Below, in pieces: positions 4,366 to 64,000 of a stretch of 64,000 nucleotides of DNA. Under the pieces are notes generated by a model that made no database searches, was not told where the DNA came from, and saw only the letters and a program-made list of their open reading frames with translations. Position 1 is the stretch's first letter; each line of letters opens with the position of its first letter. A program made the translations under genes and the position numbers. The stretch is from Pseudonocardiales bacterium (GTDB lineage Bacteria; Actinomycetota; Actinomycetes; Mycobacteriales; Pseudonocardiaceae), in assembly GCA_023252195.1 (NCBI GenBank), contig JAHEXI010000001.1:434001-498000 (forward strand), read 5' to 3'.

Positions 4366-5672
4366 CAGCCCAAGAGTCGGCTCAGCTCTTCGAGCGGGCC
4401 TGCGCTGTGATCCCCGGCGGGGTGAACTCCCCGGTGCGGGCTTTCGGTGCGGTCGGAGGAACGCCGCGCTTCATGGTCCGAGCAGCGGGACCCTACCTGT
4501 GGGACGCCGACGGCAACCGCTACGTCGATCTGGTCTCATCCTGGGGCCCGATGATTTTGGGCCACGCGCATCCCGCAGTGGTACAAGCGGTACAGGCGGC
4601 CGCCACCCGGGGGCTGTCCTTCGGCGCTCCCACCGCCGGGGAGACTGAGCTCGCTGAGGAGATCGTGCGCCGAGTCGAGCCAGTTGACCAGGTGCGCCTG
4701 GTCAACTCCGGCACCGAGGCGACGATGAGCGCGATCCGGCTGGCCCGGGGCGTCACGGGGCGCGCCGCGGTAGTCAAGTTCGCCGGGCACTACCACGGGC
4801 ACGTCGACGCGCTACTCGTCGCCGCCGGCTCCGGCGTCGCCACCTTCGGGTTGCCCAGCAGCCCAGGCGTCACCGGCGCGCAGGCCGCTGACACGATCGT
4901 GGCGCCCTACAACGACCTCGACGCGGTCCGTGCCGTGTTCGCCGAACGGGGCACCGAGATCGCTGCCGTCATCGCCGAGGCGGCTGCCGGGAACATGGGT
5001 GCGGTTCCGCCCGACTCGGGGTTCAACGCCGAGTTGCGTGAGTTGTGCCACTCCCACGGCGCGCTGCTGATCTTGGATGAAGTGATGACCGGATTTCGGG
5101 TCTCGGCCGCCGGCTGGTTCGGGCTCGAGCATGTGCCGGCCGACCTCTACACCTTCGGCAAGGTGATGTCCGGTGGGTTACCGGCGGCGGCGTTCGGCGG
5201 TTCGGTCGAGTTGATGTCCTACCTCGCCCCGGCCGGCCCGGTTTACCAGGCGGGCACGCTGTCCGGAAACCCGGTCGCGGTGGCTGCTGGGTTGGCCACG
5301 CTGCGGGCCGCTGACCGGGACGTCTACGCCCAGCTGGATGTGGCGGCGACCAGGCTGGCTGGTCTGCTCGATCAGGCATTGGACGCCCACAGCGTGCCGC
5401 ACCGGGTGCAGACCGCGGGCTCGATGCTCAGCGTGTTCTTCACCGCCCCCGCCGGCGGACCGGTGCGGGACTACGCCGGGGTCCAAGCCACCCAGACTTG
5501 GCGTTTCCCGGCGTTCTTCCACGCGCTGCTAGAGCATGGCGTCTACGCTCCACCGAGCGCGTTCGAGTCCTGGTTCGTCTCCGCAGCGCTGGACGAGGAG
5601 GCTTTCGCAGTGATCGCGGCGGCGCTGCCGCATGCCGCCCGGGCCGCCGCTGCAGCCAGGCGACCAGGATGA
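4362..5672 (+). CDS. hemL: Glutamate-1-semialdehyde 2,1-aminomutase
   Basis: PLP enzyme that converts glutamate-1-semialdehyde to 5-aminolevulinate, completing the C5 route begun by HemA. 436 residues, the usual length. Visible are the N-terminal [34 protein letters not shown] for PLP phosphate binding, [22 protein letters not shown] with the PLP-ring Asp, and [12 protein letters not shown] with Lys267 forming the internal aldimine. The start follows from the ATGA overlap with the small membrane protein gene; the 3' end overlaps the next gene in the same way. Confidence 0.98.
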
Positions 5673-6298
5673 GCCGCACCGTGGTCCACCTGCTGCGCCA
5701 CGGCGAGGTGCACAACCCGGACCGGATCCTTTACGGCCGGCTACCCGGCTTCGGGCTGTCCGCCGTCGGCGCCGGGCAAGCAGAGAAAGTCGCCGAACAT
5801 CTCGCCGATCGCGATGTGGTGCAGGTGGTCGCCTCGCCGCTGCTGCGGGCCCAGCAGACCGCGGCGTCGATCGCCGCCCGGCATGGGCTGGAGCTGCTCA
5901 CCGACGAGGGTCTGATCGAGGCGACCAACGTGTTCGAGGGGGCCCGGGTGTCGGTCGGTGACGGGGCGTTGAGCGACCCGCGAACGTGGCCCAAGCTGCG
6001 CAACCCGTTTCGGCCGTCCTGGGGAGAGCCCTACCAGCAGATCGCCAACCGGATGCTCGCCGCGACGTACCGGGCGCGCGACCGGGCCGCCGGGCATGAG
6101 GCGGTGTGCGTGTCGCATCAACTGCCGATCTACACATTGCGCCGGCACCTGGCCGGGCAGCGGCTCTGGCATGACCCACGGCGCAGGCAGTGCGCCCTGG
6201 CGTCCTTGACCAGCCTGGTCTTCGACGGCGACACGCTGCTCGAGGTGGTCTACAGCCAGCCTGCGGGCTGTTCGGACCCGAGGGTGACCGGGGCATGA
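5669..6298 (+). CDS. Histidine phosphatase / phosphoglycerate mutase family protein
   Basis: 209 residues with the LLRHGE catalytic motif (phospho-accepting His11), a second Arg/Glu region [10 protein letters not shown] near 52-61 and the second catalytic His in [10 protein letters not shown]. The fold removes or transfers phosphate from small molecules; the substrate cannot be read from sequence. A member of this family occupies the same place after hemL in mycobacteria. ATGA overlaps with hemL upstream and with the thioredoxin gene downstream place it in the haem/cytochrome operon. Confidence 0.9.
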
Positions 6299-6870
6299 GG
6301 CGGGCGTTGTTGTTCTTCGCAGCGGCTTTCCTGGTGGCCGGCTGCGCCACCGGGACCGACGCAGTGACCCACGGCGGCACCTTCGAATTCGTCACTCCAG
6401 GCGGGAAGACCGACATCTTCTACGATCCGCCGGCTAGCCGGGGCACGGTCGGCACGCTGGCCGGGGACAGCGTGACCGAACCTGGAACCACGGTGTCGCT
6501 AGCGGGGTATCCCAACCAGGCGGTGGTGCTCAATGTATGGGGCTCGTGGTGCGGGCCGTGCCGATCCGAAGCCGCCGATCTGGTGCGAGTGGCTGGTGCC
6601 ACATCGGCTCAGCGGGTGCAGTTCGTCGGGATCGACGTCCGGGACAGTCGGCAGGCCGGCGCGGACTTCGCCCGCGACTTCGGTCTCAGCTACCCGTCGA
6701 TCTTCGACCCTCCCGGCCGGACGCTGCTCGCGCTCAACGGTGTCCCTCGTTCAGTAGTGCCGCTGACCATCGTCCTGGACCGCCACCACCGGGTCGCCGC
6801 AGTATTCCTGCACGCCATCCACGCGCAGGATCTACAGCCCGTGGTGGAGCGTATTGCGGCGGAGGCCTGA
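6295..6870 (+). CDS. Membrane-anchored thioredoxin-like lipoprotein (ResA/TlpA type)
   Basis: 191 residues: an N-terminal lipoprotein signal with lipobox LVAGC (Cys17), then a TlpA/ResA thioredoxin fold with active site WCGPC (Cys86, Cys89) and a cis-Pro region PRSVVPLTIV. Acts outside the membrane, probably reducing apocytochrome c CXXCH cysteines before haem attachment, with electrons from the CcdA protein encoded next. The ATG overlaps the preceding stop (ATGA). A 66-bp gap separates it from ccdA. Confidence 0.93.
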   Translation: MRRALLFFAAAFLVAGCATGTDAVTHGGTFEFVTPGGKTDIFYDPPASRGTVGTLAGDSVTEPGTTVSLAGYPNQAVVLNVWGSWCGPCRSEAADLVRVAGATSAQRVQFVGIDVRDSRQAGADFARDFGLSYPSIFDPPGRTLLALNGVPRSVVPLTIVLDRHHRVAAVFLHAIHAQDLQPVVERIAAEA

Positions 6871-6936
6871 CCCCTTTCGCGCCCGCGTACGGGGTTGGTG
6901 CTACGTGACGAGCTGCCTCGACCTACGCTGAGCAAT

Positions 6937-7692
6937 GTGGGGCTCACCGAACTCGCCATCTCCGGACCGCTGTTGCTGGCGGCGGGGTTGGCGGTGGTGG
7001 CCGGTGCGGTGAGTTTTGCCTCGCCGTGTGTGGTCCCGCTGGTGCCTGGATACCTGGCGTACCTGACGGGGTTGGTCGGCGCTGAGGGCGCCGATCGCAG
7101 CCGGGGGCGGGTGTTCAGCGCGGTCGCGCTGTTCGTGCTCGGTTTCTCGGTGGTGTTCACCGCCAGCGTGGTGACGGTGCTCGGTGTCGCGGACCGGCTG
7201 ACCGTCAACGAGGTGATCCTGCAGCGCGTCGGTGGTGTGATCACCATCGCAATGGGGCTGGTGTTCGTCGGGATGGTGCCTACCCTGCAACGCGACCTGC
7301 GGGTGCACCCGCGATCAGGGTTGGGGCCCCGGCACCTGCTCGGTGCGCCGCTGCTGGGCGCGGTATTCGGTCTGGGCTGGACGCCGTGCCTGGGACCCAC
7401 GCTGGCCGGAGTGATAGCGCTGGCCGTCGGCACCCCCGGCGGTGGCCTCGCTCGCGGAGTGCTGCTGGTGGTGGCCTACTGCCTCGGCCTGGGAGTGCCC
7501 TTCGTGGTGCTTGCTTTCGGCGCAAGGCGCGCGGTCCGGGCGATGTCCTGGCTGCGCGTACACGTCCGCGGGGTCCAACTCGCCGGTGGTGCGTTGCTCA
7601 TCGCGGTCGGGCTTGCGCTGGTCACGGGGGTGTGGGCGGAGCTCATCGCCGTACTCCAAGGGCCGGTCCGGGGTTTCGAGACGCCGATCTGA
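6937..7692 (+). CDS. ccdA: Cytochrome c biogenesis membrane protein CcdA (DsbD-like electron carrier)
   Basis: 251 residues with six predicted transmembrane helices. The two conserved cysteines that shuttle reducing power across the membrane lie in SFASPCVVPLVPGY (Cys31) and GWTPCLGPTLAG (Cys151). CcdA passes electrons from cytoplasmic thioredoxin to the extracytoplasmic thioredoxin-like lipoprotein upstream. GTG 6937 is chosen because it gives a normal short N-terminus; a TTG at 6895 would add 14 residues. Its stop shares one base with the resB ATG. Confidence 0.94.
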   Translation: MGLTELAISGPLLLAAGLAVVAGAVSFASPCVVPLVPGYLAYLTGLVGAEGADRSRGRVFSAVALFVLGFSVVFTASVVTVLGVADRLTVNEVILQRVGGVITIAMGLVFVGMVPTLQRDLRVHPRSGLGPRHLLGAPLLGAVFGLGWTPCLGPTLAGVIALAVGTPGGGLARGVLLVVAYCLGLGVPFVVLAFGARRAVRAMSWLRVHVRGVQLAGGALLIAVGLALVTGVWAELIAVLQGPVRGFETPI

Positions 7693-9296
7693 TGAACCGA
7701 TTGGCGCAGTTGACGGCGTTGGCCCGCAATACCTGGCGCGGGTTGACGAGCATGCGCACTGCCCTGGCGCTGCTGTTCCTGCTGGCGCTGGGCGCGTTGC
7801 CGGGGGCTCTGCTGCCGCAGTACTCGCTCAACGCCCAGCGGGTGCGGACCTATCAGGCGCAGCACCCGATCTTGGCACCGGTGCTGGACCGGCTGGGTTT
7901 CTTTGAGGTCTTCGCCAGTCCGTGGTTCGCCGCGATCTACCTGCTGCTGTTCATCTCGCTGGTGGGTTGCGTGGTGCCGCGCAGCATCGACTACGCGCGG
8001 CAGCTGCGCCGGGCCCCGGTGGCCACCCCCCGCAACCTCGCCCGGCTGCCGCATCACGCTGTCGGTCAGACCGCCAGCACCCCCGCTGAGGTCATCGTGG
8101 CCGCACGGCGACGGCTGCGTGGTTGGCGAATCGCCGAGGGCGAGGAGCCCGGCGGCGTCCGGACGCTGTCCGCCGAGCGAGGCTACCTGCGCGAAGCGGG
8201 CAACCTCGTCTTCCACGTCGCCCTGCTCGGGCTGCTGGTGTCCTTCGCGATCGGCAAGCTGATCGGCTACGAGGGCCAGGTGATCGTGCTCGCCAACGGC
8301 TCACAGTTCTGCAACTCCGGCTCGCTGGCCTACGACTCGTTCCGCCCAGGGCGGTCGGTCGACGGCACCGCGCTTACCCCGTTCTGCGTGCAAGTCAACG
8401 CTTTCAGGCCGACCTACCTGCCCACCGGAGCGCCAGAAGACTACCGCGCCGCCATCACCTATCAGGGACCCGACGACATCGCCCCCGGCACGTGGCATCC
8501 CTACCTGTTGAAGGTCAACGACCCGTTGCGGATCGGCGGCACCCGGGTGTACCTGCTCGGCCACGGTTACGCGCCCCAGTTCACGGTCACCTTTCCGGAC
8601 GGGCAGCAGCGCAGCGCCGTAGTGCAGTGGCCGCCGGTGGAGCTGGGCACGATGTTGTCGGAGGGCACCACCAAATTCGACCCACCCGGGATCACCGACG
8701 ACGCGACCCGGCGTACCGGCCAGCTTGCGATCACCGGGCTGTTCGCGCCGACCGCGACATTCCGCGGTTCACTGCTGTCCTCGGCCTTCCCGGACATGCT
8801 CGATCCGGCCGTCGCCGTCGACGTGCTCAAGGGCGATCTGGGCAACAACTCCGGCCGCGGACAGTCGATCTTCTCCATCGATCAGTCCATGGTGGACTCG
8901 GGGCGCTTGAAGCAGGTGGCGCGACAGAACCTGCGGCCCGGTGAGCAGCTCACCCTGCCCGACCGCACGGTGGTGCACTTCGACGGGGTGACCCGCTTTG
9001 TGTCGCTGCAGGTCTCCTACGACCCGACGCAGCTCTGGGTGCTCGGCTTCGCGATGCTCATTCTCGGCGGACTTGGACTGTCCCTGATCGTCAAGCGCCG
9101 CCGATTGTGGGTGCGCGTCACAGCGGCGGAACTGGCCGGTACCGTGGTCGAATTGGGCGGGTTGGCCCGCACTGAGGCCGCTGGCTACGGCGAGGAATTC
9201 GAGCGGATCGCTGCTGACCTGCTGCCGCCCGGCCGGGCACAGCCACCGGTGCCTACCGTGGCGTCGAAGGCTGTTATATCGAAGGACGGGAGATGA
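7692..9296 (+). CDS. resB: Cytochrome c biogenesis protein ResB (CcsB-family haem lyase subunit)
   Basis: 534 residues. Begins MNRLAQLTALARNTWRGLTS, then three N-terminal transmembrane helices (near residues 22-42, 72-95 and 175-195), a large extracytoplasmic domain and a last helix near LWVLGFAMLILGGLGLSLIV before a basic cytoplasmic tail. With CcsA-type protein it forms the System II synthase that moves haem outward and attaches it to apocytochrome c. ATG overlaps the ccdA stop (TGATG). The gene pair with the following haem-handling protein is diagnostic. Confidence 0.95.
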   Translation: MNRLAQLTALARNTWRGLTSMRTALALLFLLALGALPGALLPQYSLNAQRVRTYQAQHPILAPVLDRLGFFEVFASPWFAAIYLLLFISLVGCVVPRSIDYARQLRRAPVATPRNLARLPHHAVGQTASTPAEVIVAARRRLRGWRIAEGEEPGGVRTLSAERGYLREAGNLVFHVALLGLLVSFAIGKLIGYEGQVIVLANGSQFCNSGSLAYDSFRPGRSVDGTALTPFCVQVNAFRPTYLPTGAPEDYRAAITYQGPDDIAPGTWHPYLLKVNDPLRIGGTRVYLLGHGYAPQFTVTFPDGQQRSAVVQWPPVELGTMLSEGTTKFDPPGITDDATRRTGQLAITGLFAPTATFRGSLLSSAFPDMLDPAVAVDVLKGDLGNNSGRGQSIFSIDQSMVDSGRLKQVARQNLRPGEQLTLPDRTVVHFDGVTRFVSLQVSYDPTQLWVLGFAMLILGGLGLSLIVKRRRLWVRVTAAELAGTVVELGGLARTEAAGYGEEFERIAADLLPPGRAQPPVPTVASKAVISKDGR

Positions 9297-62928: not shown

Positions 62929-63496
62929 CGGCACCTACTGAGTGAAAACAAGCGCTGGAACGACTAGGTGGTCGCGCGGTGCGCAGGGTGCTAGGCGCGA
63001 GGTCGACGCTGCGTCATCGGAACGTCATTCTGTGTAGTCGGATTCCGTGCACGCTAGGTAGTCATCGCCGGTGTTCCCTGGTAGTGCGCTGCCAGCTCCT
63101 TCGCAATCGTCGCAGGTCCTGCCGCACACCAGAGGCAACGGGCTCGCCGCCCAACGGGTAACGGGCCGCACCGCAGCGGCGTACCTACGCCTGTGCCCAC
63201 CGCCCCGGCATGGCGTCTCACCAGCGGCGGTGGGATCGGTTGGCAGCTGAGCAGCGGCGAACGGCGGCGCCCGCGTGGGTACCAGTCGCGGTGCCGTCGG
63301 TAAGTCCGCGCCAATGAGTAGGTAATCGAAAAAAACGGCTTTACGGCATAGGTGACGACATTCGAAATTAGGTGGCGAATAGATGTTGTCAGGAGACCTC
63401 CTGCTCGCCAGAGTATGTATTAGCCAAATCGGCAAGAGGAAGTCGAAGAGGCACTTCTGTCCCGGCCCATTGTGGGCAATTTCAAGGAGGATATTC
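62929..63496. other. Intergenic region upstream of the glycine-rich peptide gene
   Basis: About 570 bp without a supported gene. The right 190 bp are AT-richer than the surroundings. They contain TTGTCA (63386-63391), the palindrome CAGGAG-AC-CTCCTG (63390-63403) and TATGTAT (63414-63420), which together could form a regulated promoter. A long minus-strand open frame here is not protein-like. Confidence 0.4.
63484..63490 (+). promoter_or_regulatory. Strong ribosome binding site AAGGAGG of the glycine-rich peptide gene
   Basis: Perfect Shine-Dalgarno six bases before ATG 63497; it sets the start of the 93-residue product against the long upstream frame. Confidence 0.85.
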
Positions 63497-63778
63497 ATGT
63501 CTGACGTATTGAGCTACGCCGACGTCGATGGCCAGCACGTGGAGCTGCTCCCGGCTCGTACCGTCATGTCGATGTTCCACGCCGGCTGTGGCTGCGAGGG
63601 TGGCGGTGGCGGCGAAGAGGCCGGCGACGGCGGTGTCGGCGGTAATGGTGGCTCCGCGCAGGGTGGCCTCGGCATCAACATCCTGAGTGGCCTCGGCGTC
63701 CTGGGGACTGGCACCGCCAGCGCGGGTGACGCGACCGGCGGCAACGGTGGCTCCGCCAACGGCGGCGGCGTTCACTGA
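63497..63778 (+). CDS. Small glycine-rich peptide with leader-like N-terminus, candidate RiPP precursor
   Basis: 93 residues. Residues 1-27 form a compact leader-like segment, MSDVLSYADVDGQHVELLPA then RTVMSMF. From residue 28 the product changes abruptly: HAGCGCEGGGGGEEAGDGG with two Cys, then GGNGGSAQGG (49-57), a hydrophobic GINILSGLGVLGTGTASAG and GGNGGSANGG (81-90), ending GVH. A two-part layout of polar, charged leader and Gly/Ser/Cys/Asn-rich core is what a ribosomally made, modified peptide would show. Strong ribosome binding site and a perfect terminator 170 bp downstream support expression. No maturation enzyme is encoded in the window. A structural Gly-rich protein is the alternative. 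Confidence 0.75.
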   Translation: MSDVLSYADVDGQHVELLPARTVMSMFHAGCGCEGGGGGEEAGDGGVGGNGGSAQGGLGINILSGLGVLGTGTASAGDATGGNGGSANGGGVH

Positions 63779-63947: not shown

Positions 63948-63988
63948 CTGAAGGGACGGCCGCAATGCGGCCGTCCCTTCAGCTTTTT
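63948..63988 (+). terminator. Strong Rho-independent terminator after the glycine-rich peptide gene
   Basis: CTGAAGGGACGGCCGC (63948-63963) pairs perfectly with GCGGCCGTCCCTTCAG (63967-63982): a 16-bp stem with an AAT loop, followed by TTTTT at 63984-63988. Confidence 0.95.
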
Positions 63989-64000
63989 ACCCGGGTATTT

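Follow-up and report, generated by a model that had tools for sequence, protein, structure and literature searches.

A peptide precursor with a Gly-rich core in Pseudonocardiales belongs to an apparently undescribed actinobacterial family that adjoins a putative RRE-containing membrane protease

RRE domains are usually taken as a sign of modification chemistry. Prochlorosin-like sets comprise many scattered precursors with one leader and few enzymes, and the mycobacterial PE_PGRS proteins combine a conserved N-terminus with Gly-rich repeats of the GGNGG type. In epipeptides, the M50 protease EpeP, related to the proteases considered below, is believed both to cut EpeX and to carry it out of the cell. 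In daptides, the RRE-dependent intramembrane peptidase MpaP removes the leader (PMC10036551), and the combination of RRE, site-2-type protease and precursor is already known from them. The gene described here belongs to a large and apparently undescribed family of peptide precursors in actinobacteria, all with one common recognition tag. Open-access papers turned up neither this leader family nor its broad distribution in the absence of tailoring genes, nor its expansion to about 20 Gly-rich members; an earlier mention is possible, the RRE family lists on which PMC10036551 draws being one candidate place.

The gene (P0001) lies near the right end of the window, the whole 64,000-nucleotide stretch of DNA that was analysed (Table 1). 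A sequence-only reading had described a two-part peptide of 93 residues bracketed by a ribosome-binding site and a terminator, and most of that description holds: the open reading frame is real and intact, its leader-core layout is borne out, and 29 of residues 28-93 are Gly (more than 40 percent had been claimed) against a single Gly in residues 1-27. The reported GCGC begins at residue 30 and the two repeat units, GGNGGSAQGG and GGNGGSANGG, at residues 48 and 81, with the hydrophobic centre GLGINILSGLGVLGTG between them. The ribosome-binding site is present 6 nt 5′ of the ATG. The stem of the terminator, put at 16 bp, was measured slightly longer; it starts about 170 nt beyond the stop codon and may serve two genes, since a convergent gene (64034-64486, minus strand) lies on its far side. 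A longer in-frame alternative starts at 63383; the start at 63497 is supported by the constant spacing of the family, in which the distance from start to LPxR is identical in 61 of the 63 precursors recovered within the genus (three genomes). P0001 has no Pfam match at E <= 10.

Table 1. Features of the precursor locus, in window positions
Feature	Position	Strand	Remarks
Precursor gene P0001, 93 aa	63497..63778	+	Intact ORF; 21 leader matches in own genome
Leader, residues 1-27, MSDVLSYADVDGQHVELLPARTVMSMF	63497..63577	+	On average 70% identical between pairs of the 60 own-genus precursors compared; end approximate
Core, residues 28-93, 44% Gly	63578..63775	+	Residue composition and family comparison
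Ribosome-binding site AAGGAGG	63484..63490	+	GGAGG-type sites also precede most paralogues
Possible small hairpin GCCCA/TGGGC before RBS	63465..63477	+	Weak enrichment
Upstream dyad GCCAAATCGGC (consensus GCCGAATCGGC)	63423..63433	.	Common to many paralogues
Promoter-like block TTGTCA ... TATGTA	63386..63421	+	Similar in paralogues, by-eye alignment
Terminator-like inverted repeat and T-run	63948..63982	.	17-bp arms around 1 nt

The leader has many relatives. In the organism's own genome (4.74 Mb, 48 contigs) a DNA search returned 20 places and a leader profile 21 (E 6e-21 to 1e-7), some in arrays and some scattered; one of the 21, on contig C37, is partial and has an unclear start. Two other genomes of the genus hold 26 and 18 leader matches, and nine family loci occur among public Pseudonocardiales metagenome assembly records. 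From the three genus genomes 63 precursors were recovered and 60 kept for comparison. Their pairwise identity is 70% over the first 27 residues and 33% over the C-terminal part (28% when one partner is composition-shuffled), and in 1760 of 1770 pairs conservation is higher in the leader; the proposal that the leader is kept while the core varies had been put forward as a check, and it is borne out. In 171 close pairs (with similar cores, and not independent of one another) the leader has a dN/dS of 0.18 and the C-terminal part one of 0.34, which indicates that both are under selection. The Gly share of the 60 cores spans 7% to 51%, and leader identity persists even in genomes where the cores are not Gly-rich at all (G017, G428). 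The core is not freely variable, because that of P0001 is also conserved among ten close relatives, orthologues of the window locus. One precursor of the own genome (G000:C44, L162:6026-6544) has a core made of a long GGDK repeat with an assembly gap (a run of N) inside it.

Precursors with this leader adjoin a membrane protein of 416-491 residues in G000, G002, G048, G012, G046, G017 and G428. The motif FHExGH is present in 25 of 25 of these proteases tested and LDGYY (DGYY) in 20 of the 25, and hydrophobic stretches flank the active site. In a profile comparison the N-terminal part resembled PqqD with 94.3% probability and a score of 41.6 (best of 100 column shuffles: 15.9); the PqqD side of this comparison consisted of 15 of 20 PqqD loci, five having been removed by a motif filter. 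The Pfam PqqD model gave no match on the proteases, and Pfam M50 stayed below its cut-off. The NCBIfam model daptide_HExxH matched all eight proteases scanned (E 1e-22 to 3e-30); the same eight scored 80-106 bits against a cut-off of 300 with NF041824 (daptide protease) and 26-44 bits against 225 with NF058609 (LiaK/YydH). Judged from these profiles, the partner looks like a membrane protease of the HExxH type that carries a PqqD-like (RRE) domain at its N-terminus, is distantly related to the daptide leader protease and seems made for recognising the leader tag and taking it off. A relative among solved structures was sought and rejected, as there were two weak, unrelated-looking matches only.

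Like daptides as described in PMC10036551, the family has short precursors with several per cluster, an E-L-E-x type of leader motif ending in Pro (ELExMEAP in daptides, E-L-(D/E)-x-Q-x-x-E-L-L-P here) and an intramembrane protease of the site-2 type whose N-terminus is an RRE. There are also multiple differences. First, the leader motif is ELxxQxxELLPxR rather than ELExMEAP; written E-(I/L/V)-(D/E)-x-Q-x-x-E-L-L-P, it is the putative RRE-recognition motif. Second, the invariant C-terminal Thr is missing: none of 62 readable own-genus precursors ends in Thr. Third, DapB, DapC, DapD, DapM and transporters are not among the recurring neighbours (the DapB model was silent in the own genome, and so was its control). 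With motif, C-terminal Thr, cluster genes and the NF041824 cut-off all at variance, membership in the daptides was rejected. The epipeptides (EpeX/YydF with EpeP/YydH) share a membrane HExxH protease thought there both to cleave and to export; they differ in that no radical SAM epimerase was recognised among the recurring neighbours here and the NF058609 cut-off was missed. Scattered precursors with one leader recall the prochlorosin-like sets, but no lanthionine enzyme is linked to these. The conserved N-terminus and the GGNGG-type repeats of P0001 recall PE_PGRS proteins, but Pfam recognised no PE domain in it at E <= 10, and its 27-residue leader is tied to an RRE protease.

How closely are leader and protease associated? 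Among 60 family-level genomes the leader was found in seven and the protease in eight, with an overlap of seven; 52 of the other 53 had no protease. Counted by genus, the leader is present in four, the protease in five and both in four of 46. For the co-occurrence p is 2e-8 when genomes are counted and 3e-5 when genera are, values to be read with the fact that six of the seven genomes supplied the protease alignment: because profile A2 was built from their leader-adjacent proteases, the complete overlap is partly by construction, and G052 is the independent case. Across 396 genomes of the phylum the protease matched in 43 at E <= 1e-10 and in 25 at E <= 1e-90. In 23 wider protease regions from 18 genomes a leader-type ORF adjoins the protease every time, and in the 12 of the 25 strong-protease genomes that were taken with wide regions it is adjacent in 12 of 12. 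Thirteen other strong loci had never entered the leader profile, and eight of these exceed the best chance score, 4.3 bits (obtained in the window and right flank with P0001 left out; 21 control loci gave 3.6). The remaining five are within chance by score: L133 (4.2) and L137 (2.9) are leader-like by eye, and L122, L126 and L138 show no leader. A narrower leader profile matched five of the 396 genomes, G000 and G428 convincingly. The 47 wider leaders were chosen by a pattern requiring LP.[RK], with one false row removed, so that their invariant L, P and R are there by construction; left out of this set were the ALPDKE/ALPAKE-type clusters of G027, G133, G067, G144 and G285. Long precursors of 211-285 residues also occur (L171:8094-8729, L179:9429-10175, L180:9029-9808, L181:9448-10152, L182:7127-7984), with ALPDKE/LPAKE leaders, AAPIDLAVAAN-type cores and larger paired proteases of 769-891 residues. 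Both Streptomyces plasmid matches, one in Streptomyces sp. NBC_00557 and one in S. changanensis, carry precursor and protease, annotated as hypothetical proteins. A viral home was rejected: viral contigs offered 30 candidate stretches, and none held up.

The window gene itself stands apart from any protease. Maturation enzymes had been proposed just right of position 64,000, and none was recognised in 19.9 kb of flank (19 genes called by a simple script rather than an annotation pipeline, nine of them scanned with Pfam); the genes there include a gamma-glutamylcyclotransferase, a glycerol kinase, an MFS protein, a glycerol-3-phosphate dehydrogenase and a biotin carboxylase. A tblastn search with ten proteases found no match in the window or its flanks. 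The general expectation that such a precursor would have maturation genes nearby is correct for its relatives, which adjoin the RRE-HExxH protease, and fails for P0001. The neighbours of P0001 are housekeeping genes in an arrangement that recurs in L009, L012 and L014, and the GlpK, GlpD and cyclotransferase part of it is also present in G012. As the protease is absent from the whole 653-kb contig C31 and these housekeeping neighbours are conserved elsewhere, the window gene is best seen as an old orphan member of the family. The own genome encodes proteases on C5 and C44, and C13 carries the decayed remains of a protease gene. Beside these three sit six of the 21 leader matches (four on C5, one each on C44 and C13), and 15 lie away. 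The C13 remnant (G000:C13:8329-8556 and 8886-8981) is short, has an internal stop and sits beside a precursor, a decayed pair. The window precursor is probably served in trans by the C5 or C44 protease.

Scattered members appear to share upstream sequence. The dyad GCCGAATCGGC, at up to two mismatches and 60-86 nt 5′ of the start, precedes 39 of 61 own-genus precursors (expected from 11-mer frequencies of the window: about 3.7 of 61), and by eye a TTG(C/T)C...-type block lies 5′ of it in paralogues. That dyad and block are common to the precursors suggests one regulon, spread by whole-cassette copying. A strong stem before the ribosome-binding site occurs in 34 of 61 paralogue leaders (shuffles: mean 22.4, maximum 30); a strong conserved 5′ hairpin was rejected, the 61-sequence alignment having no consensus structure and the enrichment being weak, and a search for an Rfam element found none. 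Close to the protease, two genus members encode a LuxR-type ATPase regulator (L021:12966-15512, L102:1533-3914), a candidate for control through the upstream element.

Clustering of 316 neighbour proteins returned the protease as the commonest type (18 genomes), followed by two precursor types (nine genomes, and a Gly-rich type in four) and then by LuxR/response-regulator proteins (five genomes). No recognisable tailoring enzyme recurs in at least two of the 18 genomes (23 regions; names mostly given by eye), nor does any ABC exporter or immunity gene. With no recognisable modification enzyme besides the protease recurring nearby, leader removal is the sole processing indicated, and the sequence-only claim of a modified peptide is so far not supported. 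In terms of a RiPP in the broad sense, the sequences have a conserved leader with a variable core and an RRE-type partner domain, and no recognisable modification enzyme beyond the leader protease recurs in the 23 regions. A LanKC-like gene, seen in G027 only, speaks against a reading wholly free of modification.

The reading we consider likely is that of a minimal precursor-plus-protease system, in which leader-guided proteolysis matures the peptide and sets its core free outside the cell, where it may form part of the surface. The RRE domain would dock the E-L-x-x-Q-x-x-E-L-L-P part of the leader, so that what follows LPARTVMSMF is presented to the active site in the membrane. The protease would then cut the leader off, and the Gly-rich core, possibly otherwise unmodified, would emerge on the outside, perhaps by way of the protease itself. 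Docking, cleavage and exit are inferred by analogy with the related proteases; the cut residue, export by the protease and the function of the core are likewise proposals. The weakest step, which could perhaps go either way, is the role of the core, most likely that of a Gly-rich component outside the cell or on its surface. Composition speaks for this role, and so do Gly-rich extracellular neighbours: proteins with signal-like N-termini and Gly-rich sequence occur near clusters in G002, G012, G046 and G135. A structural Gly-rich role, offered earlier as an alternative to a precursor, may be what the core does once processed. A distant actinobacterial genome encodes, beside a protease, two Gly-rich and secreted-looking proteins of very large size (L183:2089-4854 and 5038-7056), carrying GGNGGKAVGG-like units that resemble the P0001 core. 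A DUF2807 lipoprotein-like gene lies 3′ of the protease in G000, G002 and G048, all of one genus. Near clusters with cores that are not Gly-rich, secreted-looking proteins were seen (L186:7791-8483, L097:12832-13431, L178:5744-6412, L176:7761-8453, L177:7439-8164), several with CxxC and AYQ motifs and four grouping with C-terminal extensions of the protease; a secreted-looking protein resembling that extension clusters with the protease in G017, G060, G095 and G295. Such proteins are a possible third component of the system.

The core might instead be a bacteriocin or signalling peptide matured in the same way and not a surface component. Daptides and EpeX, which have related proteases, are reported to act on membranes; several cores contain a hydrophobic stretch, and the number of variants in each genome would be in keeping with an arsenal. 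The cores, however, are long (about 33-84 residues), rich in Gly, Asn and Ser and not clearly cationic, and the lack of a recurring exporter or immunity gene also weighs against this role, which we regard as unlikely. A conventional RiPP pathway, in which a tailoring enzyme encoded elsewhere modifies Ser, Thr or Cys of the core before the protease acts, seems somewhat more doubtful still. A class III lanthionine synthetase is indeed encoded in the own genome (bit score 774.6, cut-off 575), Cys is present in 16 of 60 cores, and daptide clusters can add LanKC/LanJC and YcaO (PMC10036551). In G027 a gene that looks LanKC-like by eye lies 237 bp past the protease on the opposite strand (L171:11285-13813), but a small peptide is also encoded between the two. 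The LanKC of the own genome likewise adjoins a RamS-like 40-aa peptide and two ABC transporters of its own, and for that peptide's sake its action in trans was rejected as the main reading. The locus in question (G000:C23, L209:6360-12832) runs from the synthetase through the RamS-like peptide to two transporter-like genes, a SapB-type cluster. YcaO is absent from the own genome (its control was positive), the Daptide_RRE model had no match there (its control was equally silent), and the neighbour clusters hold no recurring tailoring enzyme. That the product is an unprocessed structural Gly-rich protein, its N-terminus having another role and the protease other substrates, fits the composition of the core taken alone and the position of most copies away from the protease, but is very improbable given that the leader is kept while cores change, even to ones that are not Gly-rich, and that leader-type ORFs and protease stay together phylum-wide.

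The minimal precursor-plus-protease system would bear on how RRE domains are understood. Finding one with a protease and peptides alone suggests that leaders might serve purely as addresses, directing proteolysis and export. More speculatively, and with less confidence than in the system itself, the RRE-fused intramembrane protease might be a leader-reading exit gate for structural peptides across Actinomycetota, free of modification and independent of Sec signals and ABC exporters; in this uncultured genus the route would have grown into a regulon with some 20 Gly-rich surface peptides behind one upstream element, served by two proteases in trans. If leaders do act purely as addresses, the system would give small extracellular peptides a further way out of the cell in a phylum with a wealth of secreted natural products, would explain genes now labelled "hypothetical" in cultured Streptomyces and would offer a testable system of one protease and many cores.
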